Source: Armatimonadota bacterium
GTDB lineage: Bacteria; Sysuimicrobiota; Sysuimicrobiia; Sysuimicrobiales; Humicultoraceae
Reading direction: 5' to 3'
Length of the DNA: 64,000 nt
Assembly (NCBI GenBank): GCA_031081715.1
Contig: JAVHMA010000003.1
Location: 62,001 to 126,000, forward strand
The notes beneath the pieces were generated by a model, which saw only the letters and a list, made by a program, of their open reading frames with translations, ran no database searches and had not been told where the DNA came from. Positions 7,123 to 63,900 of this stretch are shown here, one piece after another. The translations under genes were made by a program, and so were the position numbers. The stretch's first letter is position 1; the number at the start of each line of letters is the position of its first letter.

Positions 7123-7998
7123 ATGTCCGCGCGTGACGACGCAGGGGGCGGCCCGCTGTTCAGCGTGATCCTCCCCACCTACAACCGGGCAGCACTGCTG
7201 GCGGAGGCGGTCGCCTCCGTGCTCAGGCAGACCGTGGAGGAGTTCGAGTGCCTGGTGGTAGACGATGGCAGCCCGAACTCGTTCCAGCTGCCGCGTGATC
7301 CGCGGGTGCGGGTGATCGCACGCTCGAGCAACAGCGGGCCGGCCGCCTCGCGGAACACGGGCCTTCGGGCGGCCCGCGGACGGTACGTCACGTTCCTGGA
7401 CGACGACGATCTGTACACACCCGATCGACTGGCCCTGGCGCTCGAAGGCCTGCGGCGGGCGCCGATCACGGTCTGCTGGCTTCGATTCCTCGACGCCCCG
7501 GAGGGCCGCAACCGCGTCCTCGACGGCGATGTGCGCGACACCATCCTCGAGGACTTCGCCCCGCATGTGGGTGTCACGGCGGTCGCGCGGGAGCTGGTCC
7601 CGCTGTTCGACGAGCGCTTCCTCGCGGCGGAGGATGCCGAGTGGTGGATCCGGCTCGCCTCCCGCGGGCCGGTCAGCACCACGCCGCGCGTCGGGTACCT
7701 GCTACGCCGGCACCCCGAGGCCCGTCACCTGCTGCATGCCGAGGCCCGCGTCGAAGGACGGCGGCTGCTCCTGCAGGTGCACGCGTCGTACTTTGCGACC
7801 CGACCCCGCGCCGCGGGCTTTCAGTGGAAGCGCCTCGGCCACCTCGCCCGGATCAGCGGCGACTTCAAGCTGGCCAGGGCGGCGTTCGTACGTGCCTTGA
7901 GGCTCCGACCCGAACTCCGGAGCCTGTGGCACCTCCTGGCCTGCCTCCGGCCCTCGGCACGGCGGCCCGGACGCCGCGAGCCACTCCACGACCGGTGA
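7123..7998 (+). CDS. Glycosyltransferase family 2
   Basis: A 291-residue GT-A fold enzyme. It has the FSVILPTYNR opening, VVDDGS for nucleotide-sugar binding, and LDDDDLY as the metal-binding DxD at about residue 105. Acceptor-side AEDAEWW lies near 175. It is cytoplasmic or membrane-peripheral and adds one sugar to the exported glycan. The ATG at 7123 follows GGCGGAG; an in-frame ATG 66 bases earlier lacks a ribosome site and adds a non-homologous leader. It is the first gene of the ten-gene glycan operon and overlaps the Wzm gene by 4 bp. Sugar specificity is unknown. Confidence 0.85.
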   Translation: MSARDDAGGGPLFSVILPTYNRAALLAEAVASVLRQTVEEFECLVVDDGSPNSFQLPRDPRVRVIARSSNSGPAASRNTGLRAARGRYVTFLDDDDLYTPDRLALALEGLRRAPITVCWLRFLDAPEGRNRVLDGDVRDTILEDFAPHVGVTAVARELVPLFDERFLAAEDAEWWIRLASRGPVSTTPRVGYLLRRHPEARHLLHAEARVEGRRLLLQVHASYFATRPRAAGFQWKRLGHLARISGDFKLARAAFVRALRLRPELRSLWHLLACLRPSARRPGRREPLHDR

Positions 7999-8843
7999 CG
8001 CGCCCCGCGCCGCCGGCCGCGCCCCCCCGGGACCTGCGGTTTCGCCGCCGAATCGACATCCGCGTGGCGGCGCGAGAGCTGTGGAGGAGCCGGGAGCTCG
8101 TCCACAGCCTCGTCGAGCGGGACCTCCGGGCCCAGTACAAGCAAGCGGTGCTGGGCGTCGCGTGGGCGGTGGTCACGCCGCTCGCCTTCATGGTCGTGTT
8201 CTCGGTGTTCTTCCGGCGCGTGGCGACCGTCGACACGCAGGGCATCCCCTACCCGCTGTTCTCGTATGTGGGTGTCGTCCCCTGGACGTTCTTCTCCAGC
8301 GCCGTGACGCGAGGGGGCCTTAGCCTCCTGTCGAACGCCGCGCTCCTGAACAGGGTGTACTGCCCGCGCGAGGTCTTCCCCCTCGCCGGCGTCATCTCGG
8401 CGGGCATCGACACGCTGGTGGCCCTGGCGGTACTGGGTATCCTGTTCGCGCTAAGCGGCGTGGCGCCCCGCCCCACATCGGTGCTCGCCCCGATGCTCGT
8501 GTTGACACAGCTGGCGTTCACCGTAGGGGTGACGCTGACGGTGGCAGCGCTCGTCGTCTACTTCCGCGACCTGCGACACGCGCTGTCGTTGGTTCTCCAG
8601 TTCGGAGTCCTGGCGACCCCGGTAGCCTACGGCCTGGAGGTGATCCCGCGCCACCTCCAGGTGCTCTACGGTCTCGTCAACCCGCTGGGGCCGGTCATCG
8701 ACGGGTATCGGCGCGTCATCTTGTTCGGACAGACGCCGCAGTGGGAAACGCTGGCGCCCGCGGTCCTGGCGTCGTGTGTCTGGCTCGTCGGGGCGTTCGT
8801 GCTGTTCAAGAAGCTCGAGGTCGGGTTCGCCGATGTCGTCTAG
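7995..8843 (+). CDS. wzm: Polysaccharide ABC exporter permease (Wzm-type)
   Basis: A 282-residue ABC-2 permease. A cytoplasmic N-terminus leads into the family motif around LVERDLRAQYKQAVLGVAWA. About six hydrophobic segments follow (first near residues 50-70, last near 255-275). It forms the channel through which an undecaprenyl-linked glycan leaves the cytoplasm. The GTG at 7995 forms a GTGA overlap with the preceding stop; longer frames start inside the glycosyltransferase. It partners the ATPase whose start lies within its last codons. The hydrophobic pattern and position next to a Wzt-like ATPase make the assignment firm. Confidence 0.88.
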   Translation: MTRPAPPAAPPRDLRFRRRIDIRVAARELWRSRELVHSLVERDLRAQYKQAVLGVAWAVVTPLAFMVVFSVFFRRVATVDTQGIPYPLFSYVGVVPWTFFSSAVTRGGLSLLSNAALLNRVYCPREVFPLAGVISAGIDTLVALAVLGILFALSGVAPRPTSVLAPMLVLTQLAFTVGVTLTVAALVVYFRDLRHALSLVLQFGVLATPVAYGLEVIPRHLQVLYGLVNPLGPVIDGYRRVILFGQTPQWETLAPAVLASCVWLVGAFVLFKKLEVGFADVV

Positions 8844-50067: not shown

Positions 50068-50964
50068 ATGAGACTCGAACGCGGGCACAGCCTGCTGATC
50101 GCCAACCGGCTGGCAGGCGGCGGCCGACCCGAGCACGCGATTCCCCGCGTCCGGCGTACCCTCGACGCGCTGGGCATCCCGCACACGCTCCGGGTGGTCG
50201 ACGGCTACGACGGGGTCGTGCACGCGGCCGAGGCGGCGCGGGGGTTCGACCGCGTGGTGGTCGTCGGCGGCGACGGCACGATCAACGGCGCGGTGAACGG
50301 CCTGCTCCGAGCCGGAGCCGACATTCCACTGGCCATCGTGCCCGCCGGCACCGGCAACGAGTTCGTCCGCGCGCTCGGCGTGCCGCGCGCCCCCGAGGAC
50401 GCGGCGCGCCTCCTGGTCACGGGCACGCTGCGCCGCATCGACGTCGGGCGCGTGAACGGCACGGCGTTCGTGAACTCCTTCGGCATCGGACTGGACGCCC
50501 GGGTCGCGGCCGCGGTGCGCGCCTGGCGGCGCGGGCGCTGGCTGCGCGGCCGGGCCATCTACTACCTGGCGGGCATGCGCATCCTAGCCGCCGCGATCAA
50601 GCCCGAAACCGTGGAAGTGCACGTGGACTCCCGGCGCCTGGAGAGCGAGGCTGTCATGGTGAGCGTGGTCAATGCCCGCCCCTACCTGGCACGCGGCATC
50701 GCCAATGGCACGCTGGAGGACGGGCGGCTCGACCTCTACCTGGTGGGGCCGATGGCTCGCTGGCGCATGGTCGCCGGCCTGCTCTCGCGGGGCGGGTGGA
50801 CCGCGCACCCGCAGGTCATGGCGGTCCGGACGCCGCGCGTGGACGTCTCCCTCCCCTACCCCGTGGTGGCGCACACCGACGGCAGCCTGCTGCCGCCCTC
50901 GCCGGCCTTCCGGCTTGAGGCCCTGCCCGCCCGCATCCAGGTCGTGGTGCCCCCGCTGCAGTGA
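50068..50964 (+). CDS. Diacylglycerol/lipid kinase-like protein
   Basis: A 298-residue protein of the DAGK catalytic-domain family (YegS/DgkB type). The ATP-binding motif VVVGGDGTINGAVNGLL is at about 63-80, IVPAGTGNEFVRALG follows, and the C-terminal beta-sandwich contains FVNSFGIGLDARV. It should phosphorylate diacylglycerol or a related lipid at the membrane. It is the first gene of a three-gene operon, overlapping the next gene by GTGA. Confidence 0.88.
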   Translation: MRLERGHSLLIANRLAGGGRPEHAIPRVRRTLDALGIPHTLRVVDGYDGVVHAAEAARGFDRVVVVGGDGTINGAVNGLLRAGADIPLAIVPAGTGNEFVRALGVPRAPEDAARLLVTGTLRRIDVGRVNGTAFVNSFGIGLDARVAAAVRAWRRGRWLRGRAIYYLAGMRILAAAIKPETVEVHVDSRRLESEAVMVSVVNARPYLARGIANGTLEDGRLDLYLVGPMARWRMVAGLLSRGGWTAHPQVMAVRTPRVDVSLPYPVVAHTDGSLLPPSPAFRLEALPARIQVVVPPLQ

Positions 50965-52133
50965 CCGCGGCGTCGCCCGGGTCCCCATCCATCGCGTTCC
51001 TGTCGTGCAACTACGGCGGCGGGCACAACCGCGTCGCCGAGGTGCTCGCCCGGGAGGTGCGCGCGCGGCGGCCCGAGGCCCGCATCCAGGTGCTCGATTA
51101 CATCGAGACGTTCGTGGGACATGCGCAGAACGTGCTCTCCACGTTCTGCTACGTGACTGCCGTGCGCCGCGCGCCGTGGACCTGGCGGTGGTTCTACCGC
51201 GCCACGAGCCGCATCCCGTACGACTCGCCGACGCAGCGGGCGCTCAACAGCCTGGGCAAGGCACGGCTGGAGCGCTTCCTGGCCGCGCAGCGGCCGGACC
51301 TGGTTGTCTGCACCTACTGCGTGCCGGCCGGCGCGATCTCCGAGCTGCGGGCGGCCGGCCGCACCGCGGTCCCGTGCGCCACGGTGATCACCGACCATGC
51401 CGTCCATAGCCAGTGGATCCACCCGCACGTGGACCAGTACCTGGTCTCCAGCGACTACGTGCGGGCCGGGCTGGTCGCCCGCGGGGTCCCGCCCGACCGC
51501 GTCGCCACGACCGGCATCCCGATCGACCCGCGCTTCGGCGTCCCGCACGACGTCCGCGCGCTCCGCCGCCGGTACGGACTGCACCCGGACGTGCCGGTGA
51601 TCCTGGTCATGGTCGGCGCGGCGAACCTGCTGCGGCGCGCGGCTGATGTCTACCGCGCGCTCGCCGAGCTGCCCGTCGACGCCCAGGTGGTGTGGGTCTG
51701 CGGCCGCGACGAGCGTCTCCGTCGGACGCTTGAGGCCCTGGCGCCGCGCGCCCGCAACCCGGTCACGGTCCTCGGCTACGTCGAGGAGGTCCACGAGCTG
51801 ATGGCCGCCGCCACGCTCATGGTCTCCAAGGCGGGCGGGGTCACGACCTCCGAGGCGTTCGCCGCGGAGCTGCCTGTCGTCGTCATCAACCCGATCCCCG
51901 GCCAGGAGGAGGAGAACGTCAGGTTCGTGGAGCACCTGGGTGCCGGCGTGCAGGCGCGCAGCGTGGCAGACCTGGGCCGCATCGTGACGGACCTGCTCTC
52001 GTCGCCCGGACGCCTGGACGCGATGCGGGCGGCGGCGGCCCGGGTAAAACGGCCGGACGCCGCGGCGCGCGCGGCCGAGATCATCCTGCGCGTGGGCGGG
52101 CTCCTCCCCCTGGTCCCGGCCGGGCGGGGTTAG
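50961..52133 (+). CDS. MGDG-synthase-like glycosyltransferase (GT28)
   Basis: A 390-residue GT-B enzyme related to plant MGD and bacterial processive diacylglycerol glucosyltransferases. The N-terminal MGDG_synth region has FLSCNYGGGHNRVAEVLA and DHAVHSQWIHPHVDQYLV. The C-terminal donor domain has VSKAGGVTTSEAFAAELPVV. It transfers galactose or glucose to diacylglycerol, giving membrane glycolipids. The GTG start overlaps the kinase-like gene. Together they indicate control of the diacylglycerol pool between phospholipid and glycolipid. Confidence 0.88.
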   Translation: MTAASPGSPSIAFLSCNYGGGHNRVAEVLAREVRARRPEARIQVLDYIETFVGHAQNVLSTFCYVTAVRRAPWTWRWFYRATSRIPYDSPTQRALNSLGKARLERFLAAQRPDLVVCTYCVPAGAISELRAAGRTAVPCATVITDHAVHSQWIHPHVDQYLVSSDYVRAGLVARGVPPDRVATTGIPIDPRFGVPHDVRALRRRYGLHPDVPVILVMVGAANLLRRAADVYRALAELPVDAQVVWVCGRDERLRRTLEALAPRARNPVTVLGYVEEVHELMAAATLMVSKAGGVTTSEAFAAELPVVVINPIPGQEEENVRFVEHLGAGVQARSVADLGRIVTDLLSSPGRLDAMRAAAARVKRPDAAARAAEIILRVGGLLPLVPAGRG

Positions 52134-52144
52134 CCGCCCGGCGC

Positions 52145-53437
52145 GTGCCCGTGCTCCCGGGCCTGCTGGCCGCCCTCGGGGCCGGCGCCCTCGCCTACAC
52201 CGCCGGCGCGCACGCCGCGGCGACCGCCGGGCTCGGCGTCGTGCGCCGCGGGCCCTCTAGCCGGCGCGTGGCCGCGCTGACCTTCGACGACGGCCCGGAC
52301 CCGATCTACACCCCCCGGGTGCTCGAGGCGCTCGCGGCGGCCGGCGCCCGCGCGACGTTCTTCCTCATCGGCGAGCGGGCCGCGCGCTACCCGCAGCTCG
52401 CGCGCGCGATCGTGGCCGCGGGCCACGCGGTGGGCAGCCACACGCAGCGCCACCGGCACCTCTGGACGCTGGCGCCCGCGGCCACGCGCGCGGAGATGCG
52501 GCTGGCCACCGAGGCCATCGCGGCCGCGTCAGGGGTCGCGCCCCGGTACTTCCGGCCGCCGTGGGGCACGTTCAACCTCGCCGCGTACCGCTACGCCGCG
52601 ACGCTGGGTCAGGTCCGGGTGCTGTGGTCGCTGCGACCCGAGGGCTGGCGGCCGGCCCCGTCGGCCGACGCGCTGGTCGAGCGCGTGGCACGGCGCCTCC
52701 ACGCCGGCGCCATCATCGACTTGCACGACGGGGTGCACTCGCGGATCGCGCCACCGGCCCCGCCAGCCGCGGTGGACGCCCTGCCCGCACTGCTCGACCT
52801 GCTGCGCACGCGCGGTTACCGCTGCGTGACCCTGGACGAGCTCCTCGATCCGACACGCGGCGACCTCGTCCCTCGCGGGCTGGGCGGCCGGTTGTGGGAG
52901 GCCTACGAGCGCGCATGGGCGCGCGCCTACCGGCTAGAACCGGTGGGCGACGAGGGCGTCATCACCGCCGGCCTGGCCCCACACCGCGGGCCTGCCGTGA
53001 CCCTGCGCGACGGCACCGTGGTCGCCCGCGGCGACGTGGTGGCCGAGGTCCACTACAACCGCCACTTCCTCCGGCGGCTGCACCTTCAGGTGACCGACCG
53101 GCGGCGGGCCGTGGCGCTTATCCGCGCGTCCGAGGGCGCGCTGCGCGACCTGGCCGCGCTCGTCGCGACCGACCCGCGCTACCGCGCGGTGCGGGCGCTG
53201 CGGGCGACGTCGCTATTCTGGGAGGGCGCGCAGTACCTCGGCTTCGAGATCATGCCCATGGAGAGCGCGCAGGCGCAGCGGGTGCTGGGCTGGTACCTGC
53301 GCACGCTGATGGCCCGCGACCATCCCCAGGGCCGCCGCCGTCTGGAGGGCCGCACGCTCGAGCCGCGCATCCTCTGGATGTCGCGCGAGGAGCTGCTCCG
53401 GCGCCACCGGCCGTCCGGCGCGCCGGCCATGGGATGA
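52145..53437 (+). CDS. Polysaccharide deacetylase with C-terminal YkoP-like domain
   Basis: A 430-residue protein. An N-terminal hydrophobic segment (about 5-25) is a signal anchor. The NodB domain follows at 40-235, with LTFDDGPDP (46-53), SHTQRHRHLW and YFRPPWGTFN. The last 190 or so residues (YERAWARAYRLEPVGDEGVI, later FWEGAQYLGFEIMPM) match the YkoP-like domain seen fused to NodB proteins in other bacteria. It follows the glycosyltransferase by 11 bp with a GTG start. It may deacetylate a cell-surface glycan or act in glycolipid assembly. Confidence 0.8.
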   Translation: MPVLPGLLAALGAGALAYTAGAHAAATAGLGVVRRGPSSRRVAALTFDDGPDPIYTPRVLEALAAAGARATFFLIGERAARYPQLARAIVAAGHAVGSHTQRHRHLWTLAPAATRAEMRLATEAIAAASGVAPRYFRPPWGTFNLAAYRYAATLGQVRVLWSLRPEGWRPAPSADALVERVARRLHAGAIIDLHDGVHSRIAPPAPPAAVDALPALLDLLRTRGYRCVTLDELLDPTRGDLVPRGLGGRLWEAYERAWARAYRLEPVGDEGVITAGLAPHRGPAVTLRDGTVVARGDVVAEVHYNRHFLRRLHLQVTDRRRAVALIRASEGALRDLAALVATDPRYRAVRALRATSLFWEGAQYLGFEIMPMESAQAQRVLGWYLRTLMARDHPQGRRRLEGRTLEPRILWMSREELLRRHRPSGAPAMG

Positions 53438-53483
53438 GGCCCGCGGCCGCCGGCGTTCATCCGCAGAGAGGAGCGTGCGCACG

Positions 53484-54467
53484 ATGCGCCAGGATCGGGA
53501 AGCGCTGCTCGGCATTCACCACGTCACCGCGATCGCCGGCGACCCGCAGGCGAACGTGGACTTCTACGTGGGCGTCCTGGGCCTGCGGCTCGTCAAGCGC
53601 TCGGTCAACCAGGACGATCCCGGCACCTACCACCTGTTCTACGCGGACGCGGTCGGCCACCCCGGCACCGACCTGACCTTCTTCCCATGGCCGGGCGCGC
53701 GGCGGGGCCGCGCCGGCGCGGGCCAGACCATCGCCGTCGCACTGGCCGTGCCGCCCGAGTCGCTGGGGTACTGGACGCGGCGTCTCACTGACCACGGCGT
53801 CGCCTGCGAGGGGCCTGCGCGCCGGCTCGGCGAGGAGGTCGTGGCGCTCTCCGATCCGGACGGGATGCCCGTCGAGCTCGTCGCCGGGCCGGACACCGGG
53901 ACACGCACGCTCTGGACCCCCTGGGAAGACGGCCCGGTGCCGCCCGAGCACGCGGTGCGCGGCCTGCACGCCGTGACCCTGCTCGAGACCGCGGTGGAGC
54001 CGACCCGGACGTTCCTGGTGGAGGTGCTCGGCGCGCGCGAGGTCGGCGACGGCGACGGGCGGCTGCGGTTCGCGACCGGCGCGGGCGGCTCCGGGGCGAT
54101 GCTCGACTTGATCGCGCGGGCCGGCGCGGCGCCGGGCCGGATCGCGGCCGGCAGCATCCACCACGTGGCGTGGCGGACCGCGGACGCGGGCACGCACCGC
54201 GGCTGGTGGGAGCGCCTGCGCGGCCGCGGGATCCCGGTGAGCTCGATCATCGACCGCTTCTGGTTTACGTCCATCTACTTCCACGAGCCCGGCGGCGCGC
54301 TCTTCGAGATCGCCACCGACGGCCCCGGGTTCACCGTGGACGAACGCGCGGAGGCCCTCGGCAGCCGATTGATCCTGCCGCCGTGGTTGGAAGGGCGCCG
54401 CGCGGAGATCGAGCGGGTGCTGCCGCCGTTGCGGGTCCCGGCGCCGGCCCGCCGCGGCCCCGGTTAG
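53484..54467 (+). CDS. VOC-superfamily protein, ring-cleaving dioxygenase-like
   Basis: A 327-residue protein of two glyoxalase/bleomycin-resistance (VOC) modules, in the style of MhqO-type putative ring-cleaving dioxygenases. The metal ligands expected are His in GIHHVTAIAGDP, His in AVRGLHAVTLLE/SIHHVAW and Glu in FEIATDGPGF. It could open hydroquinones or catechols, or detoxify quinones. The ATG at 53484 is ten bases after AGAGGAG; an in-frame GTG nine bases earlier is too close to it. Its stop overlaps that of the convergent AAA gene. Confidence 0.83.
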   Translation: MRQDREALLGIHHVTAIAGDPQANVDFYVGVLGLRLVKRSVNQDDPGTYHLFYADAVGHPGTDLTFFPWPGARRGRAGAGQTIAVALAVPPESLGYWTRRLTDHGVACEGPARRLGEEVVALSDPDGMPVELVAGPDTGTRTLWTPWEDGPVPPEHAVRGLHAVTLLETAVEPTRTFLVEVLGAREVGDGDGRLRFATGAGGSGAMLDLIARAGAAPGRIAAGSIHHVAWRTADAGTHRGWWERLRGRGIPVSSIIDRFWFTSIYFHEPGGALFEIATDGPGFTVDERAEALGSRLILPPWLEGRRAEIERVLPPLRVPAPARRGPG

Positions 54468-56191
54468 ATCAGCCCCATCGCGCTGAGCCGGAGCCGCAGC
54501 TCCTGCGCGCGCGCCTCCATCTCCGCGCGTGTGAGGCGGCGGTACCGGTCCGGGAGGAAGTCGGCGAACGTGGACTCCAGCGCGGCCTGGAGCTCCATGA
54601 ACTGGATCATCGCCTCGCTGCGCGTGGGCCGGTAGCGCGCGGCCGTGGCGACCAGGTGCTCGGCGGAGAGCACCGGGGTCCCGTCCTCGCGCGGCGCCGT
54701 GCGCCGGGCCACGGTGACCATTGCCTCAATCTCCGCGGGCGAGTAGCCGGCGATCGTCTCGGCGACCGCGCCCAGCTCCTCGGGCAACCGCGCCCCGAGC
54801 CGGCGGGCCACCACCCGCAGCACCCCGAGCGGGTCGTCCGCGGCGTAGAAGATCGGAATCTTGAGGTCGCCAAGCCGGCCCGGGCGCTTGGTCGCCTCGT
54901 CCATGGCGTCGGGCCGGTTGGTCATCCAGATGACCAGGATGCGGCCGCGGTGGCTGGAGTCGCCGAGGAACTTGCTCCACATCCCCCACAGGCGCTGGCT
55001 GACACCCGAGTCGCCGCGCTCGCCGCGCTGCCCGTAGGTCTGGTCGATCTCGTCCCACATGACCACGACCGCGCCGATCGACTCGAGGAAGTTGATGACC
55101 TTCTCGGAGTTGCGCTCGCTCTGCCCGACGTACTCCGCCCGCAGGTTGCCGATCTCGACGACCGGCACGCCGAGTTCCTTCGCGATCGCCATCCCCACGT
55201 AGCTCTTGCCGGTCCCCGGCGGCCCCACGAGCCCGATCGCCATCGGGACGTTCGCGGCGTCGCCGCGGCGGAACGCGTCAATCACCACGCGCAGCTCGGC
55301 CTTCGCCGCCTGCATGCCGGCGACCGCGTCCAGGCCGTGCCGCGGCTCGACCACCTTGATTAGGCCGCCGTACTCGTCCTCGATCAGCTCGTTCTTCCGG
55401 CGGGCGACCTCCTCGAAGGTCAACCGCGCGTCCCCGCGCCGTGCCTGTTTGAGCACCCCCTCGATCTTCACCAGCGACAGCCCGGCGGTGAGCCCGGCGA
55501 GGCGCTGGGGCGTCATCTCCGCCTCCAGCGGCGCGCGCCGGAGCGCCGCCTCGATGAAGCGCAACCGCTCGGGCTCGTCGGGGAACGGCAGGCGGACGCT
55601 GTCGAGCTGCGGGTTCCCGCGCCACAGGTCGGGGTGGACCGCCGACTGATGCTCGCTGACGAGCAGCACGAAGTTGTTGCGCGCCAGGAACGCCGGCTCG
55701 AACCCCCAGCGCTGGAGCAGGGCGACGTGCCGGCGGTCGTCGAGGGAGAGCGCCGCGGCGTCGCCCGCGGGGGCGATCTTCTCCACGTGGTCGATGATGA
55801 CGCAGACGTGGTTGCGCACGCTGAGCAGCCGGCCGAGCACCGGCAGGGCGGCGCGCGGGTCGCGGAGCTCGGCGCGCACCGCCTCCCAGTCGTCGGGCTG
55901 AACCGCTGACCGGCCGGCCAGCGCGCCGCGGACCGCGTAGAACGAGAGGAACTCGCGGACGGTCGCCTCGTCGGGCAGCACGAGCCCGTCGGCCAGGTTG
56001 TAGGCCACCACGAGCATGCCGGGCGCGCCGGCGAGCGCGCGGACGAGGAATGGCCGCAACCGCAGGTACTCGGCGCCGAGCGGGTAGACGTCGTGGATGT
56101 TGGTGTGGAGCAGGAACTGGCTCGCGGCCCCGCTCTCGTACTTCGCGCGGATTTCCTCGGCCCAGGCCGGGAGTGTGAGGATCTGGCTCAT
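54464..56191 (-). CDS. AAA ATPase with degenerate N-terminal ATPase-like domain
   Basis: A 575-residue protein. Residues 25-230 look like a decayed P-loop domain: no Walker A, but a hydrophobic Walker-B-like HVCVIIDHVEKI (128-139). The active classical AAA domain at about 285-480 has Walker A GPPGTGKS (323-330), Walker B VVVMWDEID, sensor 1 MTNRPDAM and an arginine-finger region KRPGRLGD. A helical lid and C-terminal helices follow. It resembles meiotic-clade AAA proteins in sequence. It is last in a four-gene cluster with a PspA-like protein; remodelling of PspA polymers, as Vps4 does for ESCRT-III, is a plausible role (inference). Confidence 0.88.
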   Translation of the reverse strand: MSQILTLPAWAEEIRAKYESGAASQFLLHTNIHDVYPLGAEYLRLRPFLVRALAGAPGMLVVAYNLADGLVLPDEATVREFLSFYAVRGALAGRSAVQPDDWEAVRAELRDPRAALPVLGRLLSVRNHVCVIIDHVEKIAPAGDAAALSLDDRRHVALLQRWGFEPAFLARNNFVLLVSEHQSAVHPDLWRGNPQLDSVRLPFPDEPERLRFIEAALRRAPLEAEMTPQRLAGLTAGLSLVKIEGVLKQARRGDARLTFEEVARRKNELIEDEYGGLIKVVEPRHGLDAVAGMQAAKAELRVVIDAFRRGDAANVPMAIGLVGPPGTGKSYVGMAIAKELGVPVVEIGNLRAEYVGQSERNSEKVINFLESIGAVVVMWDEIDQTYGQRGERGDSGVSQRLWGMWSKFLGDSSHRGRILVIWMTNRPDAMDEATKRPGRLGDLKIPIFYAADDPLGVLRVVARRLGARLPEELGAVAETIAGYSPAEIEAMVTVARRTAPREDGTPVLSAEHLVATAARYRPTRSEAMIQFMELQAALESTFADFLPDRYRRLTRAEMEARAQELRLRLSAMGLI

Positions 56192-56216
56192 CGACGGTGC
56201 CCCTGGGAGTCCGGCG

Positions 56217-57017
56217 CTACGCGTGCCGGACCCGCTGGATCTGCTCCATGACCGGTTTGACCTCCTCGATCGCCTGCTCGGTGCTCTCGACCCCGGCCAA
56301 AATCTCCTTCAGGCCCTGCGGCTGGCGCCCCGCGGCGCTCCAGGAGACGAGCTTGTCGGCGAGGTAGGCGATGCTGTGCTCGACCGTGGCGATCTGGGAG
56401 GTCACGATCTCCACATTCCGCTGCATCTGCTCCATCTCGCCAAGCCGCTTCTCCAGCACCTCCAGGCGCTGCGCCTCGACGCGGGCCAGGTCCGGGTGGT
56501 CGTCCGCCCGGACGCGGCGGCGCACGGCCTGCATCTCGTCCACCAAGGCCTCGGCGTCGATGGTGGCCAGGTAGGCCCGGGCCGCCAGGCGCACTGCCAG
56601 GAGGTCGAGCATCTGGTCGAGCAGGTCGTCCACCCGGTCGAGCTCGGAGGCGGCCAGGGTGCGCGTCTGCCCGTCGAGCCGGTCGCGGGCGGCCGCGAGC
56701 CGGCGCTGCGTCGCGCGGAAGCGCTCGCGGTCGGCGCGCGGCAGGGCCGCGAGCGTACGCGCCCGCCAGGCCTCCCGGCGGCGGCCGCGCCGCCGGGCCC
56801 GCTGCACCGCCAGGTACCGCTCAAACCAAGCGCTGCCCGGCGCGTTGATCAGGTAGAGCGCCTCGACCGCGCCGCCGACAATGAGCGGGATCGGGCTCCC
56901 GGTGAGCAGCGCGAGCGCGGCGATCCCGCCGAGCCCGATCAAGTTGAAGTCCTGCAGCAGCGCCTCGACGATCTTCGGGCGCCGGGGCGGGGGGTCCGGC
57001 GGAAGCGGCCCGGCCAC
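56217..57017 (-). CDS. Membrane-anchored coiled-coil protein of unknown family
   Basis: A 266-residue protein. Residues 22-58 form one or two closely spaced membrane segments (FNLIGLGGIAALALLTGS, PIPLIVGGAVEALYLINAP). The rest is highly charged and helical, with long heptad stretches (residues 95-130 and 165-265; RLEVLEKRLGEMEQMQRNVE). No enzyme motif is seen. Starting with GTG only 3 bp after the ligand-binding gene and ending 25 bp before the AAA gene, it is probably the membrane adaptor of the cluster, on which the PspA-like protein or the ATPase could dock. Function unknown. Confidence 0.78.
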   Translation of the reverse strand: MAGPLPPDPPPRRPKIVEALLQDFNLIGLGGIAALALLTGSPIPLIVGGAVEALYLINAPGSAWFERYLAVQRARRRGRRREAWRARTLAALPRADRERFRATQRRLAAARDRLDGQTRTLAASELDRVDDLLDQMLDLLAVRLAARAYLATIDAEALVDEMQAVRRRVRADDHPDLARVEAQRLEVLEKRLGEMEQMQRNVEIVTSQIATVEHSIAYLADKLVSWSAAGRQPQGLKEILAGVESTEQAIEEVKPVMEQIQRVRHA

Positions 57018-57020
57018 GCG

Positions 57021-58211
57021 CTAGGGGACGATCACGCGGTCGGCGACGAAGTCGCGCTCGCGGGCCCGCACCAGGACCCAGGACTTGCCGACCACGTCGC
57101 CGTTCGCGTCGAAGGCGATCCGGCCCGTCACCCCGAGGTAGGCCGGCCGGCCGCGCCCGATGGTCTCGAGGTAGGCCTGGATCGCGCGCCGGGTGACGTG
57201 CCCCTCGCGGAGGGCATTGAGCACCAGCGCGACCGCGTCGTACGACGTGGCCATGTTGTGGTTGGGCGGCGCATGGATCGCGGCTTCGAAGGCCCGCGCG
57301 AACTCCTCGGCACGCGGGAGCAGCGGCGAGTTGCGCACGGTGTAGTGATAGAACGCCGTCGCCCGCACCCCGCGCGCCGCCTCGCCGCCGGAGGCGAACA
57401 GCCCCTGGCTGTACACCGCGTCGCCGCCGAGGATCGGGACCGTCACCCCCATCTCGCGCAGCATCCGCGCGATCCGGCCGGCGTCCGCGTACTCCCCGGT
57501 CATCAGCACCGCGTCCGCGTCGCGCGGGTCCTCGGTGATGCGGATCGCGCCGTTCACCGTGAAGGGGTTACGGAGTACGCGGCCGCCCAGCCGCTCGTAG
57601 AGACGCTGGAAGTGATCCGCGAGCCCGCGCGAGTAGGCGTCCTCCGGATCGACGAACACCAGCGTGGTGCGGTGGCCTTCGTTCCAGATGGCGTTGGCCA
57701 GCGCCCGGGCCTGGTCGATATCGTGGCCGACCACCCGGAAGACGTAGTCGCCCAGCTGCGCCACCGCGGGGTTGATGGACGTGGAGGTGATCGCCGGGAG
57801 CCCCGCCGCCTGGTAGAGCGGACCCGCGGCGAGCGTGGCGCGGCTGTTGTAGTGGCCGATCAGGGCGATCACCGCGTCGTTCGCCGTGATGCGCTGGGCG
57901 ACCCGCACGGCCTCCTCGGCCGAGGCCGCGTCGTCGTGGAAGTGCACCACGACCTTGCGGCCGGCTAGGCCGCCGGTCTGGTTCACCTGCCGCTGCGCGT
58001 AGTAGACGCCGAAGAGGATCTGCTGCCCGTACTGCTGCTGGGCGCCCGAGAACGGCCCGGCCACCGCGATCTCCCACACCGGCCGGCCCGCAAGCAGCGC
58101 GTAGGCGTTCTCGCGCAGCACGATGGCTTCGATGTGCCGCGCGAACCAGACACCCGCCAGCACCAGAACGACGACCGTTAGGGTGAACTTGCCGAGCCGG
58201 GTGAGCCCCAT
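57021..58211 (-). CDS. Type 1 periplasmic ligand-binding protein with uncleaved-looking membrane anchor
   Basis: A 396-residue receptor of the Leu/Ile/Val-binding (ANF-receptor-like) fold: VAGPFSGAQQQYGQQILFGV, ALIGHYNSRATLAAGPLYQ, AITSTSINPAVAQLGDYVFR and later YDAVALVLNALREG. The N-terminus is a single hydrophobic segment (KFTLTVVVLVLAGVWFARHI) without an obvious cleavage site, so the domain is probably held at the outer face of the inner membrane. No ABC permease or ATPase of the branched-chain type is nearby. Its neighbours are PspA-like and AAA proteins, so sensing rather than transport is likely. Confidence 0.85.
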   Translation of the reverse strand: MGLTRLGKFTLTVVVLVLAGVWFARHIEAIVLRENAYALLAGRPVWEIAVAGPFSGAQQQYGQQILFGVYYAQRQVNQTGGLAGRKVVVHFHDDAASAEEAVRVAQRITANDAVIALIGHYNSRATLAAGPLYQAAGLPAITSTSINPAVAQLGDYVFRVVGHDIDQARALANAIWNEGHRTTLVFVDPEDAYSRGLADHFQRLYERLGGRVLRNPFTVNGAIRITEDPRDADAVLMTGEYADAGRIARMLREMGVTVPILGGDAVYSQGLFASGGEAARGVRATAFYHYTVRNSPLLPRAEEFARAFEAAIHAPPNHNMATSYDAVALVLNALREGHVTRRAIQAYLETIGRGRPAYLGVTGRIAFDANGDVVGKSWVLVRARERDFVADRVIVP

Positions 58212-58217
58212 GCGCGC

Positions 58218-58824
58218 CTACTGGGTCTCGGGCTGCCTCGCCGGCTGCATGGTCTTCTCCACCGGCTCCTCCGGCAGCATGCCGAGCTGGCGCTTGTACT
58301 CCACGAGCTGCTCCTCCACGCCGATCTGCGCGGTCGCCCTCCGGATATCCCGCAGCCGGGCGTCCACGTCCTTCGTCGCGAGCTCGACGCGCGCCTGGGC
58401 CTGCGCCGCGCGGTCGCGCACGCGGTCCCGCGCGCGCTCCAGCACGTCGGACTGGTCGCCGATCTCGAACGACGCCATCAGCCCGGCCAGGTCGTCCTGC
58501 ATGCGCGCCATCTCGTGCTGGGAGAGCAGCGCGCGCGCCTCCCGCACCCGGCGCTCCACCTCGAGGCGAGCGTCCGCCAGGGCCTTGCGGGCCTGCTCGC
58601 TCGCGGCCCGCGCGCTGTCGTACTGGTCCCGCGTCCTCCGCCAGGCTCTGCTCGGCCGTGGCCTTCGCCGCGATCAGCATCTTGGCCTCGGCCTCGTACT
58701 GCGGGCCAAGCTTTACCGCGGCGATGATCTGGCGGTCGAGGTCGGCGACCTGCGCACCGAGCTCGTCGATCTGCGCCTTGAGCTTGAGCTCGGTGGCAAT
58801 GATGTTGGCAGCGGTGGCGCGCAT
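58218..58824 (-). pseudogene. PspA/IM30-like coiled-coil protein gene, frameshifted
   Basis: Two open frames together read as one PspA/IM30-family protein of about 201 residues. The N-part from ATG 58824 runs AANIIATELKLKAQIDELGA ... KMLIAAKATAEQSLAED. The C-part runs DQYDSARAASEQARKALADA ... VLERARDRVRDRAAQAQAR. The frames join by dropping one G in the CCC run at 58628-58630 (minus GGG). The remaining sequence keeps heptad character on both sides, so the shift is recent, a sequencing error or, less likely, programmed. The protein would lack the usual N-terminal amphipathic helix. It is 6 bp from the ligand-binding gene. Confidence 0.7.
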
Positions 58825-58844
58825 GGTGGGGATCTTTGAGCGGC

Positions 58845-59651
58845 TCAGGGCGCCAGCGCGAGCGGCCGGACCGGGCTCGCGGTCCCGCCGGCCACCTTGA
58901 GAGGCAGGCAGAGGAAGACGAACTCGTGGCACTGCGCCGCCGACAGCGCGGCCAAGTCGAGGTTTTCGATGATGTAGACGCCGGCGCGCACGAGCAGCAG
59001 CACGTGGCCCGGAAGCGAGGTGCCCAGGGCCGGGTCGACGTGGCCGGGCAGGTCCCAGGCCACGTTGTCCGCGCCGACCGCGAGGACGCCCTGCCCGGCC
59101 AGCCAGGCCGAGGCCCCAGCCGCCATCCCCGGCCCGTCCAGATAGCGCTCGGGCTCGGCCCACCGCTCGTCGTTCCCGGTGCGCACCAGCACGACGTCGC
59201 CGCGTCGGATCTCGGTGCGCTGGGCCGCGCGCGCGGCCTCGAGGTCCGCGGCCTCTACCAGCGCGCGCTCCGGGAGTGGGCCGCCCCGCAGGGCGGTCAG
59301 GTCCAGCAGCACCCCGCGCGCGACGATGGGCGGCACCGTGTCGATCCCGAGCCGGGTGAAGCCCGCCGGCGTCTGGACCGCAGGGGTCACCGGCACGCCG
59401 CCGTACAGCGTCCCCTCCCACGCCTGGTGACAAAACGCGTCGATGTGCGTGCCCGCGTGCTCGGCGGTGAAGATCATGCCCGCGGCGCTGGTGCGCGGCT
59501 CGCCCGTGCTCCCCGGCTCGTGGCGGCGGTGCAGCGTGAAGAGCGTGCCCGGTCGGTGCGGAGGATAGACCGGGTCGCCGAACCGCCGCGGGTGCTCCAG
59601 ATCGAAGATTCGGGCCCCGGCGAGCCTGGCCGCGAGCTCGACGGCCGTCAC
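58845..59651 (-). CDS. Cyclase-family metal-dependent hydrolase (KynB-like, PF04199)
   Basis: A 268-residue protein with the family's metal motif HAGTHIDAFCH (about residue 63) and further conserved parts such as GDVVLVRTGNDERW and GHVLLLVRAGVYIIENLDL. Known relatives hydrolyse N-formylkynurenine or open lactones and isatins. Here it is the last gene of the pca operon (GTGA overlap with pcaB), where a muconolactone decarboxylase or enol-lactone hydrolase would be expected. It may take the enol-lactone hydrolysis step (inference). Confidence 0.85.
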   Translation of the reverse strand: MTAVELAARLAGARIFDLEHPRRFGDPVYPPHRPGTLFTLHRRHEPGSTGEPRTSAAGMIFTAEHAGTHIDAFCHQAWEGTLYGGVPVTPAVQTPAGFTRLGIDTVPPIVARGVLLDLTALRGGPLPERALVEAADLEAARAAQRTEIRRGDVVLVRTGNDERWAEPERYLDGPGMAAGASAWLAGQGVLAVGADNVAWDLPGHVDPALGTSLPGHVLLLVRAGVYIIENLDLAALSAAQCHEFVFLCLPLKVAGGTASPVRPLALAP

Positions 59652-60988
59652 GCCGGCTCCTCGGCGAACGCGGCCAGCGCGCGGTCGATGAACGCGTCGG
59701 CGCTGCCCAGGTAGCGCGCGGGGTCGAGCACGCGCTCCAGGGCCGCGCCGCTCAGCGCCGCGGCCACGCGCTCGTCTGCCGCGGCCGCCTCGCGCAGGTC
59801 GGCGCCGGCGCGCGCGGCCTGCGCGCACACGTCCGCGACCAGCCGGTAGGCCTCGTCGCGACCGGTGCGCGGGGCCAGGGCCATAACCAGCGCCTCGGCC
59901 ATCATCAGCCCGTGCGCGGCAGTCATGTTGGCGGCCATGCGGCCCTCGTCCACGGCGAGCGTCTCCACGGCACGGCGTACCCAGTCCACGGCGCCGGCAG
60001 CGTAGCGGAACAGGGCGGGCAGCGCCTCCCACTCGGCCTGCCACCCGCCGGCCCCGCGCTCGTGCTCCTGCACGCCGGCCGCGAGCAGCACGGGCACCAC
60101 ACCCAGGGCCAGCCGCGCGCACGCCGAGGCCGCGACGGCCTCGACGGGGTTACGCTTCTGCGGCATCGTCGAGGAGCGCCCGGCCCCGGCCTGCGCACCG
60201 GTCGAGACCTCGGCCACCTCGGTCTGGCTGAGCAGCACCAGGTCGCTTGCGATCTTGCCCATGGTCGCGGCCACGACGCCGAGGGCGCCCGCGACCTCGC
60301 CGATCCGGTCGCGCTCGGTGTGCCAGGGCACCTCCGGCGCCGCCAGATCGAGCTCGCGCGCAAGCAGCTCGGTCACACGCGGGCCGTCGGGTCCCAGCGC
60401 CGCCAGGGTGCCGGCGGCGCCGCCGAACTGCACCGCCAGCACGTGCGCCCGTACGTCGCGCAGCCGGCGGCGCAGCCGGGTCGCGGCGGCCAGCCACCGC
60501 GCGGCCTTCAATCCGAACGTGATCGGCACCGCGTGCTGAAGCAACGTGCGACCGGGCATCAGGCTGCCGCGGTAGCGGCTCGCGAGGCCCGCGCACGCCG
60601 CCGCCACATCGCGCAGGCCGCGCTCGAGCAGGCCCAGGCCGTCGCGCATCTGGAGGACGAGCGCGGTGTCCACGACGTCCTGGCTGGTGGCGCCCCAGTG
60701 CACGAACCCGCGGCCCGCCGCCGCGGTCCGCGCGGTGAGCCGCCGCACGAGCGGGACCGCCGGCGTGCCGGCCTCGGCCGCCTCGCGGAACAGCGCCGGC
60801 AGGTCGGGCTCATCGGCATCGCAAGCTGCTGCGATCGCCTCGGCGGCTGCTGGCGGGATGAGTCTCGCCGCCGCCTGGGCGCGGGCCAGCGCGGCCTCAA
60901 ACGCGAGCATCCGCCGGACGAGCGCGGCACTGGAGAAGACCGACGCCATCTCCGGCGTGGTGAACATGGCCTCGGACAGATCGCTCAC
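59648..60988 (-). CDS. pcaB: 3-carboxy-cis,cis-muconate cycloisomerase
   Basis: A 446-residue protein of the fumarase/aspartase superfamily that lactonises 3-carboxy-cis,cis-muconate, the product of protocatechuate 3,4-dioxygenase. Signatures are FVHWGATSQDVVDTALVLQ, LLQHAVPITFGLKAA and the SSTMPQKRNPVEA loop near residue 285. Adenylosuccinate lyase has the same fold, but the position between pcaGH-linked CoA transferase genes and a cyclase supports PcaB. The GTG at 60988 overlaps the previous stop. Confidence 0.88.
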   Translation of the reverse strand: MSDLSEAMFTTPEMASVFSSAALVRRMLAFEAALARAQAAARLIPPAAAEAIAAACDADEPDLPALFREAAEAGTPAVPLVRRLTARTAAAGRGFVHWGATSQDVVDTALVLQMRDGLGLLERGLRDVAAACAGLASRYRGSLMPGRTLLQHAVPITFGLKAARWLAAATRLRRRLRDVRAHVLAVQFGGAAGTLAALGPDGPRVTELLARELDLAAPEVPWHTERDRIGEVAGALGVVAATMGKIASDLVLLSQTEVAEVSTGAQAGAGRSSTMPQKRNPVEAVAASACARLALGVVPVLLAAGVQEHERGAGGWQAEWEALPALFRYAAGAVDWVRRAVETLAVDEGRMAANMTAAHGLMMAEALVMALAPRTGRDEAYRLVADVCAQAARAGADLREAAAADERVAAALSGAALERVLDPARYLGSADAFIDRALAAFAEEPA

Positions 60989-61758
60989 GCCGGCGCCGCG
61001 GCCGGCGCGGACCGGGCCACCAGGTCGCGCAGCACCGCAAGCTCGTGCGGTGCGGGCGGCGGGGTCTCCTCCACCCGCGCCGCGAACCGGACCGGCCAAC
61101 CGGTGCGCTCCGCGACCTGCTCGCGGGTGACGCCGGGGTGGGTGGAGGTCACGACGAGCTCCTTCGTCTCAGGGTCGGGCCGCAGCAGCGCCAGGTCGGT
61201 GATGACCAGCACCGGGCCCGCGGTGCGCAGGCCCGCCCGCGCGCGGTCGTCCCCGCCAGCGCCGTAGCCGAGCGACGTGATGAAGTCCAGCCGCGGCACG
61301 AACGACCGCCGCGTCTGCGCCAGCACGACGAACACCTGCCGGCAGTGGCTCGCGATCTCTGGCGCACCACCCGCGCCGGGCAGCCGCACGGTGGGCCGGT
61401 CGTAGGCGCCGATCACGGTGGTGTTGATGTTGCCGAAGCGGTCGATCTGCGCCGCGCCGAGGAACCCCACGGTGATCCGCCCGCCCTGGAGCCAGTACGC
61501 GAACATCTCCGGCACCGAGACCGTGACCAGGGCGGTCTCGCACAGCTCCGGATCGCCGATCGACAGCGGCAGGACGTTGGGCCGCGTACCGATCGTGCCC
61601 GACTCGTAGATCAGCGTGATGGCCGGCGCGTGGGTCAGGCGCGCCAGGTTGCTCGCCGCGGACGGCAGGCCGATCCCCACGAAGCAGACGTCGCCGTTCG
61701 ACAGCGCCCGCGCCGCCGCCACGGTCATCATCTCCGCCGGGGTGTAGGCCGCGCTCAT
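60985..61758 (-). CDS. pcaJ: CoA transferase subunit B (3-oxoadipate / glutaconate type)
   Basis: A 257-residue beta subunit of a family I CoA transferase. GDVCFVGIGLPSAASNLARL and ITLIYESGTIGTRP are visible, with the catalytic glutamate in the second motif, followed by GFLGAAQIDRFGNINTT. The ATG at 61758 overlaps the alpha subunit stop. In the pca operon it should activate 3-oxoadipate with succinyl-CoA. The sequence style is nearer to GctB-like subunits, so the pca name is by context. Confidence 0.8.
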   Translation of the reverse strand: MSAAYTPAEMMTVAAARALSNGDVCFVGIGLPSAASNLARLTHAPAITLIYESGTIGTRPNVLPLSIGDPELCETALVTVSVPEMFAYWLQGGRITVGFLGAAQIDRFGNINTTVIGAYDRPTVRLPGAGGAPEIASHCRQVFVVLAQTRRSFVPRLDFITSLGYGAGGDDRARAGLRTAGPVLVITDLALLRPDPETKELVVTSTHPGVTREQVAERTGWPVRFAARVEETPPPAPHELAVLRDLVARSAPAAAPA

Positions 61759-62612
61759 CCGGCCCGTGTCCGCGCGCCGGGCGCCAGCACGTGCTCGCGC
61801 ATCCAGGCCAGGAACGCTTCCCGGTCGCGCGAGATGCCGTCCCACGCCGCGTAGAAGGCGTTGTCGCGGCCGTAGTAGCCGTGCGCGTACGACGGCCGCG
61901 CGCCGCCGGGCGCCTCCACGATCGCGTCGAGCGTCCACGCGGGCAGCACCACCGCGTTCGGGCTGCGCAGCCGCAGGTCGTCGGCGACCTCCTCGACCGT
62001 GGCGATCGCGCGCCGCGCGGCGAGCACCGCCTCCTTCTGAACCCCCACGATGCCCTCGACCAGCACGTTACCGCGGCGGTCGGCGCGCTGCGCGTGGATG
62101 ATCGCCACATCGGGCCGCAGCGCCGGGATGGCGGCCAGGCGCTCACCCGTGAAGGGGCACTCGATAGCGCGGACGTTCGGGTTGACGCGGGCCAGGTCGG
62201 TGCCCAGGTAACCGCGGAGCACGGCGCAAGGCAGGCCGGCGGCGCCGGCGGCGTAGGCGTGCGCCATGCCCGCGTGCGTGTGCTCCTCGAGCTCCAGCGG
62301 ACGCGGCCAGCCGCGCTCCACCGCGTCGCGGAGCCGGTGGAGCGAGCCGACCCCCGGGTTTCCGCCCCACGAGAACACCAACCGCCGCGCGCAGCCCATA
62401 CCGATCATCTGGTCATAGATCAGGTCGGGCGTCATGCGGACCAGGGTGAGGTCGCGCTTCCCCTGCCGGATGACCTCGTGCCCGGCCGCGAAGGGAATGA
62501 GGTGGGTAAAGCCCTCCATCGCCACGGTGTCGCCGTCGCGGACGTAGGTGGCCACCGCCTCCGCGAGCGTCAGGAAGCGGGGCGTGCGGGGAAGCCGGTC
62601 GTCCTGGCTCAA
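61755..62612 (-). CDS. pcaI: CoA transferase subunit A (3-oxoadipate / glutaconate type)
   Basis: A 285-residue alpha subunit. The opening FLTLAEAVATYVRDGDTVAM followed by EGFTHLIPFAAGHEVIRQG and FSWGGNPGVGSLHRLRDAVE fits the CoA_trans family, GctA-like. The start is TTG at 62612, forming a TTGA overlap with the pcaG stop. No ATG or GTG gives the family N-terminus. It partners the subunit at 60985 to make a heteromeric CoA transferase. Substrate inferred from the operon. Confidence 0.8.
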   Translation of the reverse strand: MSQDDRLPRTPRFLTLAEAVATYVRDGDTVAMEGFTHLIPFAAGHEVIRQGKRDLTLVRMTPDLIYDQMIGMGCARRLVFSWGGNPGVGSLHRLRDAVERGWPRPLELEEHTHAGMAHAYAAGAAGLPCAVLRGYLGTDLARVNPNVRAIECPFTGERLAAIPALRPDVAIIHAQRADRRGNVLVEGIVGVQKEAVLAARRAIATVEEVADDLRLRSPNAVVLPAWTLDAIVEAPGGARPSYAHGYYGRDNAFYAAWDGISRDREAFLAWMREHVLAPGARTRAG

Positions 62613-63181
62613 AGCTCGAAGAACACCGTCTCGCCGTCGCCCTGCAGCACAATGTCGAACCGGTAGAGCGCCGTACCGTCGGAGGGCAGCCGCCGGGCCA
62701 GCAGGGTCGCCCGGCGCGCCGGCGGCACGAGCCGCAGAATCGGGTCCGCCGCGGTGGCGGCGTCGTCCTCGAAGTACAGGCGCGTGAACAGGTGGTCCAG
62801 CACCCCGCGCGCGCTGACGGCCACGTTGATGTGCGCGGCCTGGAGCGTGTCGCCACGGAAGGGAACCGGGCCGGGCCGCACGGTCTCGAACCAGAAGGCG
62901 CCCGCCTCCTCGGTCGCCGACCGGCCGAAGCCGATGAAGGCCGGGTCGAGCGGGACCGGCCGTTCGTCCAGCGGATGGCGATAGCGGCCGGCCGCGTTCG
63001 CCTGCCAGATCTCCACCATCGCGTCGGTCACCGGCGCGCGGTCGCCGTCATAGACGCACCCCTCGATGCGGATGCGTTCGCCCCTGGTCTGCGGCCCGAC
63101 CAGCACGTTCGCCCCCGGCCGGACGATCCCGTGAAAGAACGGACCGACGGTCAGCGACGGGGTCGGCGCCGGTGCACTCAT
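62609..63181 (-). CDS. pcaG: Protocatechuate 3,4-dioxygenase alpha subunit
   Basis: A 190-residue intradiol dioxygenase subunit. It has SLTVGPFFHGIV, the family block DAMVEIWQANAAGRYRHPLD and a C-terminal LYRFDIVLQGDGETVFFEL. The alpha subunit lacks the full iron-ligand set and forms the active site with the beta chain. The ATG at 63181 overlaps the pcaH stop. The protein is of normal length for PcaG. Confidence 0.92.
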   Translation of the reverse strand: MSAPAPTPSLTVGPFFHGIVRPGANVLVGPQTRGERIRIEGCVYDGDRAPVTDAMVEIWQANAAGRYRHPLDERPVPLDPAFIGFGRSATEEAGAFWFETVRPGPVPFRGDTLQAAHINVAVSARGVLDHLFTRLYFEDDAATAADPILRLVPPARRATLLARRLPSDGTALYRFDIVLQGDGETVFFEL

Positions 63182-63900
63182 TGCCGGTCGCGGGCTGACG
63201 CCTCGAACGGCTCCGCGGGCGTCGCCCGCGGCCCCACGAGCACGACGTCGAACCGATAGCCGAGCGCGTATCCGGGTTGCGTCACATCGTGCGCGTAGTG
63301 GGCCACGAGCCGCTCGCGCGCCGGGGCCGGGACCGCGTTGAAGATCGGGTCGAGCGCCAGCAGCGGGTCGCCGGGGAAGAACATCTGCGTGATCAGCCGC
63401 GAGCCCCAGGCCGGTCCGAGCAGCGAGAAATGGATGTGGGGCGGCCGCCAGGCGTTGGGATGGTTCTCCCACGGGTACGCGCCTGGCCGGATCGTGACGA
63501 ACCGGTAGACGCCGTCCGCGTTCGTGAGACAGCGGCCCCAGCCCAGGAAGTTCGGGTCGAGCGGCGCGCCGTGCTGGTCTACTTTATGCCGGTAACGACC
63601 AGCGGCGTTGGCCTGCCACACCTCGACGAGCGCACCGGCTATGGGCTCGTCGCGGTGGTCGGTTACCCGGCCGACAACGATCATGCGCTCGCCGATCGCC
63701 TCCTCACCGGTCCCCATGTTGCGCGTCAGGTCCGCGTCCTCGGTGCTGACCTGACTGACCGCAGGGCCGGGACCCGTGAGCTCCGAGAGCGTCACCGGCA
63801 ACCGCACCGGCGGGTGGCGCGGCGACCGCCTGACCGTGGCCCGGTACGCCTCATAGAAGTACGGCGGGTAGGTCGCCGGGTCGCGGCGGGTGCTGCTCAC
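63178..63900 (-). CDS. pcaH: Protocatechuate 3,4-dioxygenase beta subunit
   Basis: A 240-residue iron-bearing subunit. It has the intradiol block GALVEVWQANAAGRYRHKVD and the Fe(III) ligand region with Tyr in GAYPWENHPNAWRPPHIHF (His-x-His) and ITQMFFPGD. Together with PcaG it cleaves protocatechuate to 3-carboxy-cis,cis-muconate. The GTG at 63900 overlaps the stop of the gene entering from the right edge (GTGA). Confidence 0.93.
   Translation of the reverse strand: MSSTRRDPATYPPYFYEAYRATVRRSPRHPPVRLPVTLSELTGPGPAVSQVSTEDADLTRNMGTGEEAIGERMIVVGRVTDHRDEPIAGALVEVWQANAAGRYRHKVDQHGAPLDPNFLGWGRCLTNADGVYRFVTIRPGAYPWENHPNAWRPPHIHFSLLGPAWGSRLITQMFFPGDPLLALDPIFNAVPAPARERLVAHYAHDVTQPGYALGYRFDVVLVGPRATPAEPFEASARDRQ

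Follow-up and report, generated by a model that had tools for sequence, protein, structure and literature searches.

What would an anchored solute-binding protein do in an operon that holds a PspA-like gene, a membrane coiled-coil protein and an AAA ATPase, and no transporter? The question is raised by positions 54464-58824 of a 64,000-nucleotide stretch of contig JAVHMA010000003.1, the whole of which is called the window here. Four genes on the minus strand, transcribed in the order pspA-like gene, binding protein, coiled-coil protein (hereafter CC) and ATPase (hereafter AAA), are separated by gaps of 6, 3 and 25 bp, and this arrangement, first described in a prediction made from the DNA letters (the original prediction), was confirmed. 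Our answer is that the operon may encode the central parts of an ESCRT-like envelope module of bacteria, in which a ligand would control the ATP-driven remodelling of PspA; we hold this reading, whose mechanism we infer, at a little under an even chance. If it is true, bacteria would have an externally controlled ESCRT-like membrane machine.

An old association of four gene families

The nearest named relative is the metagenome-assembled genome Armatimonadetes bacterium CSP1-3 (G007, LDXQ01000021.1), whose AAA is 78% identical to that of the window and whose phylum is now called Sysuimicrobiota (PMC11604079). This sister genome carries all four genes intact and in the same order. The original prediction had claimed that the binding protein lacks transporter partners; Pfam searches found no ABC ATPase or permease gene, nor any OmpA domain, in the window operon, and the same is true of the sister operon.

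Within the phylum, CC occurs in two of 43 genomes, and only those two carry a PspA gene or remnant above noise, a patchy distribution that suggests either horizontal gain or wide loss. Elsewhere, CC was found in 122 of 195 genomes of a phylum of mostly large genomes (probably Myxococcota), in 7/68 genomes of a further phylum and in 19/386 of a broad sample. PspA lies near CC in 36 of 61 loci, AAA in 28, both in 27 and a solute-binding protein in 40, with at least one of these in 48; the loci are of unequal length and the counts are lower bounds. The original prediction had staked itself on the four families being neighbours in related genomes, and they do co-occur across many lineages, in addition to the conserved order in the sister. 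The four-family association is real and old.

Its gene content varies around a common theme. Layout A, in the large-genome phylum, reads PspA, anchored NMT1-type binding protein, CC, an unknown lipoprotein-like protein, a MacB-like ABC ATPase, a permease, an unknown protein, a Ser/Thr kinase and AAA. Layout B, spread over many families, reads PspA, anchored NMT1-type binding protein with a C-terminal OmpA domain, SsuC-like permease, SsuB-like ATPase, CC and AAA, and also exists in a shorter form without PspA and AAA. Layout C is that of CSP1-3, namely PspA, anchored Peripla_BP_6 protein, CC and AAA, free of transporter genes. A further locus, cut by the contig end (L152), encodes an anchored SBP_bac_3 protein with a C-terminal LysM domain (7131-8222), then PspA and CC; it brings the binding-domain classes of the module to three and its types of cell-wall-binding domain to two. 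A protein of about 230 residues recurs near CC and AAA or transporter genes (L096:3854-4537, MSEKQGFGSKLVSLFVT...; L109:1647-2351, MSEQKGLGSRLLGIFVE...) and is possibly another component.

A common anchor, a membrane hairpin and a two-ring ATPase

The binding protein of the window matches Peripla_BP_6 (PF13458, E=7.8e-39), and its relatives of solved structure are binding proteins of the LIV type (3td9, E=8.6e-33). Its sequence has no lipobox cysteine and begins with a hydrophobic anchor (Table 1), in agreement with the periplasmic-binding fold and N-terminal anchor first proposed for it; a 76-residue linker of weak TPR similarity, present in the sister protein, is missing. Otherwise matching operons contain binding proteins of three classes: Peripla_BP_6, NMT1-like with or without OmpA, and SBP_bac_3 with LysM. 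All three share an anchor composed of an xLTxxGK motif and a hydrophobic stretch, exemplified by MKLTPFGKLFLALIVL in layout B, MGLTRLGKFTLTVVVL in the window and KRLTAFGKLVVLAFIA in the SBP_bac_3 protein. A profile built from 11 NMT1-type anchors of layout B was run against 7,940 open reading frames; behind the training set, which takes the first 11 ranks, the window protein came 13th, its sister 17th and the SBP_bac_3 protein 21st, while the more divergent anchors of layout A scored lower. The anchor thus seems, from these sequences, to be conserved, or kept by selection, whatever the ligand-binding class, and a motif common to three binding-protein classes argues for an exchangeable sensor. 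The anchor would contact a constant membrane partner, most obviously the CC hairpin.

CC has no credible Pfam or NCBIfam family. Its AlphaFold2 model, computed from a 40-member family alignment, is confident (pLDDT 89.7, pTM 0.79) and shows two hydrophobic helices that form a hairpin, with a long helical body behind it, which bears out the membrane-hairpin coiled coil that had been proposed. No match was found among PDB folds (best E 0.095), and no ESCRT-III structure is among the PDB fold matches listed. Snf7 matches one of the 40 members (E=0.0098), and the profile comparison with a PspA alignment in hhalign gave 1%. Two or more CC-like genes or fragments stand in tandem at L104:5531-7502 and L091:5240-6592, which suggests duplication of the membrane adaptor.

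For AAA, the AlphaFold2 model (pLDDT 90.5, pTM 0.86) aligns in Foldseek over nearly its whole length with the D1-D2 tandem of Rix7, p97 and Cdc48 (best E 2.7e-23, TM-score about 0.5). The D2 motif set is complete. Of 29 homologues, all keep the Walker B DE pair and arginine R436, and the Walker A lysine, arginine R439 and an aromatic pore-loop residue (W or Y) are each kept in 28; every one of the 29 lacks a Walker A motif in D1. The description of a classical AAA with a dead ATPase-like N-terminal domain therefore stands, and the model supports a predicted substrate-threading unfoldase with a structural first ring. The AAA family has contexts other than the CC/PspA module; thus, full-length homologues of 34-35% identity lie near a ThiF/MoeB-like E1 gene at L036 and L037 (genomes G036 and G034, which belong to the order of the window genome), the former also near a cold-shock-domain gene.

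These parts could work together as follows. PspA would polymerise at the membrane, and the anchored binding protein would serve as an interchangeable periplasmic ligand sensor, a role suggested by the swapping of binding-domain class beside a persisting anchor and CC, and by the absence of the transporter in CSP1-3. Its ligand state would pass through the anchor to the CC hairpin; in other lineages, cell-wall attachment through OmpA or LysM may be signalled as well. At the inner membrane, CC, the constant partner, would through its body recruit or license both AAA and the PspA polymer, and AAA would use ATP to thread and disassemble PspA polymers and so set polymer turnover, which would in turn set membrane repair or curvature. 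A more general version, which we consider rather doubtful, is that the conserved anchor and CC hairpin form a universal socket for different binding domains (LIV-like, NMT1-like or amino-acid-type), with or without cell-wall-binding domains, that controls ATP-driven PspA turnover by a dedicated Cdc48-like unfoldase.

The damaged pspA and other readings of the operon

Against the proposed module stand the state of pspA in this genome, the transporter genes of most relatives and the limits of the likeness to ESCRT-III. The pspA gene of this genome is broken, and it is the sole PspA match there; no second convincing PspA was found in the genome. The pspA-like stretch at 58218-58824 is 607 bp long, which is not divisible by three, with its N- and C-terminal parts in different frames. 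PspA_IM30 (PF04012) matches the C-terminal frame only, over model positions 102-216 (E=9.2e-9, 35.7 bits for a cut-off of 33.9), whereas the intact sister protein (L032:8568-9290) matches positions 3-216 (E=1.5e-25). In the DNA alignment with the sister gene, the window carries a single additional base near 58627-58635, and the homology breaks off at about 58835, so that about the first 40 codons are missing; the window gene lacks both the conserved segment at the N terminus (in the sister, MWRRIRNIIRAFLGLFIRMAEDPKLMLEQYIDDVRA) and the N-terminal amphipathic membrane-binding helix (in the sister, MWRRIRNIIRAFLGLFIRMAEDPK). Upstream of the break, an unrelated cyclase gene (58845-59549) comes to its end. 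The PspA/IM30-type coiled coil of the original prediction is accordingly upheld as to family, but not as an intact gene, and the intact form of the module is best read from the sister genome because the window copy is truncated and frameshifted. A programmed frameshift was rejected, since the gene is a single open frame in the sister, from which the window copy departs by one added base beside a lost 5' end.

One explanation of this state, which concerns this genome only and is compatible with the ESCRT-like module, is that the operon is decaying: pspA would be a real pseudogene, left by a deletion that fused the operon to the neighbouring catabolic cluster, and the three other genes would be remnants or would act independently of PspA. 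It is favoured by the double damage to the gene (5' truncation plus frameshift), by the abrupt end of homology and by the want of a second convincing PspA. However, AAA, CC and the binding protein have open reading frames and evolve under purifying selection, with ratios of non-synonymous to synonymous substitution (dN/dS) of 0.18, 0.20 and 0.27, and the 5' segment of pspA itself still has a similar ratio of 0.14, so any lesion must be recent or an assembly artefact. The genome is a single draft assembly, whose junction and extra base may have arisen as faults of assembly or polishing, and the lesions are either a real recent loss or such a fault. We regard decay as a serious possibility that nevertheless has less than an even chance.

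In the PspAs of CC loci, the PspA domain is followed by a tail whose last residues are often EKT(I/L/M)GKK or similar; the tail in the window ends in EKTMQP. Motifs of the type [KR]x[MILV]G, a pattern chosen after looking, occur in 12 of 15 representative tails, compared with about one in shuffles. Ordinary PspAs also carry them (9/23), mostly through their usual LKxKMG end, and the general motif was discarded as a MIM-like recruitment signal for lack of specificity. The narrower form [KR]T[MILV] is rare elsewhere, is also found in a genome with unlinked CC, AAA and PspA (G058), and could be a candidate recruitment motif, as a lead only.

The chief rival to the ESCRT-like module is a transporter-linked role, in which the binding protein feeds an ABC transporter, linked in most relatives and unlinked here, that PspA, CC and AAA assemble or protect. 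ABC genes are present in the loci of most relatives, and the transporter-free state may therefore be derived or minimal. SsuBC-type genes lie beside CC in many relatives, some without any PspA or AAA, and because many CC loci hold transporter genes only (L097, L106, L107, L109, L112-L115), CC may serve transport. The window operon has no adjacent LivHMGF permease or ATPase genes; the genome encodes 32 BPD_transp_2 permeases elsewhere, so that a distant LIV-type pairing is possible, and a link between remodelling and solute transport has been proposed (Ravi et al. 2024, PMC11237479). On the other hand, the operon of neither CSP1-3 genome contains a transporter gene, the binding protein is transmembrane-anchored, its binding domain switches class while anchor and CC stay, and the linked ABC genes of the large-genome phylum are of a different, MacB-like type. 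On balance, we find the transport role unlikely, if less so than the next alternative.

The likeness to ESCRT-III has limits of its own: Pfam finds no MIT domain in AAA, profile and fold comparisons give no support to CC as a homologue of PspA or Snf7, and AAA stands in several genomes with neither CC nor PspA beside it (L034-L039). The ESCRT-like idea is moreover not new, because a closely related gene set has already been published in silico. What the analysis shows of the module is linkage, domains, predicted folds and motif conservation; sensing, signalling through CC and ATPase-driven disassembly are what we infer. That AAA is instead a general membrane-protein unfoldase, engaged in Cdc48- or FtsH-like quality control and tied to PspA only by co-regulation under envelope stress, agrees with a D1-D2 fold typical of general unfoldases and with the homologues that have no PspA or CC neighbours, but is improbable given that the linkage of AAA with CC and PspA recurs in distant lineages.

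The features of the operon are collected in Table 1. A plus-strand gene of the glyoxalase/extradiol-dioxygenase family (53475-54467) converges with the AAA gene and overlaps it by 4 bp, and further plus-strand genes at 50068-53437, encoding diacylglycerol-kinase-like and MGDG-synthase-like glycosyltransferase proteins and a polysaccharide deacetylase/YkoP protein, are possibly a glycolipid or cell-wall set. Directly upstream of the pspA remnant and on the same strand lies a catabolic cluster (58845-63900) with the cyclase, an adenylosuccinate-lyase-like enzyme, two CoA-transferase subunits and two protocatechuate-3,4-dioxygenase-type subunits; because it adjoins on the same strand, the remaining operon may now be reached by read-through transcription. 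A phage origin was rejected, as no relatives of AAA were found in viral contigs, and so was anti-phage defence (IetAS and others), for which only the generic AAA domain of IetA matches (about 50 bits) and the other proteins give no match.

Table 1. Operon features and their positions in the window
Feature	Position	Strand	Basis or description
AAA ATPase, 575 aa	54464-56191	minus	Pfam AAA PF00004, E=6.5e-22
AAA domains	degenerate D1 ~1-285, active D2 ~286-575 (residues)	minus	motifs and AlphaFold2 model
CC (coiled-coil) protein, 266 aa	56217-57017	minus	N-terminal membrane hairpin (helices 23-39 and 43-61) and long helical coiled-coil body
Membrane-anchored type 1 periplasmic binding protein, 396 aa	57021-58211	minus	anchor MGLTRLGKFTLTVVVLVLAGVW, then Peripla_BP_6 domain
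pspA remnant, ~200 codons of PspA/IM30 in two frames, 5' end missing	58218-58835	minus	PF04012 and DNA alignment
One-base insertion relative to intact sister pspA	58627-58635	minus	DNA alignment with sister

Comparison with known systems

The closest published gene set was described in silico by Ravi et al. 2024 (mSystems, PMC11237479, section 18), who found PspA alongside a two-AAA protein with an inactive N-terminal copy, in some cases as part of longer operons that also hold an ABC ATPase, a permease and a PBPB–OmpA protein (example OGG56892.1), and who propose ATP-dependent ESCRT-like remodelling. The same linkage of PspA to an AAA protein with an inactive N-terminal copy is found in the window, with a broken pspA, and in the sister, with an intact one. 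Both sets thus share PspA, the two-AAA protein with its dead N-terminal domain, a solute-binding protein and probably CC, which is probably the 'Snf7 homologs with a TM segment' of these authors: the transmembrane segment is present, and no Snf7 ancestry was detected in our comparisons. The window differs in lacking ABC genes and the OmpA domain, both optional in the published set, in its type 1 LIV-like binding protein and in a CC for which our comparisons showed no Snf7 similarity. A search of the literature library found no experimental paper on the set of PspA, AAA, binding protein and CC; the original statement that no characterised system has this exact set survives to that extent, but not as regards the related set and its published ESCRT-like interpretation. 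What is new is the transporter-free layout with a type 1 binding protein, the exchange of binding class behind a common anchor, and an account, at the level of family and structure, of CC, which has no solved structural relative, and of AAA as a Cdc48/Rix7-like tandem. According to Ravi et al. 2024 (PMC11237479), it is not known how assembly is regulated in PspA homologues that have no associated AAA; for those PspAs that have one, the module provides a candidate for a dedicated ATPase, together with a conserved membrane adaptor.

With the PspFABC and Lia systems, the operon has in common a PspA/IM30 effector and an envelope context, whereas it has no adjacent PspB/C, PspF, LiaF or Toastrack partners and instead contains the binding protein, CC and the unfoldase. 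Its binding protein has the same Peripla_BP_6 fold and family as the LIV/HAAT binding proteins (LivJ, 3td9, 4mlc), from which it is set apart by a transmembrane anchor of the PspA-module type and by the lack of adjacent permease and ATPase genes. A parallel to the module is seen in archaeal ESCRT loci, in which a ProX-like binding protein has been reported (Makarova et al. 2024, PMC10936438). Compared with the ESCRT-III/Vps4 systems of archaea and eukaryotes (CdvB/CdvC), AAA is a Cdc48-like D1-D2 tandem with a dead D1 rather than a single-ring MIT-Vps4, and CC is a distinct membrane protein; what the operon shares with them is a polymer gene of the PspA superfamily beside a classical AAA with an aromatic pore loop.

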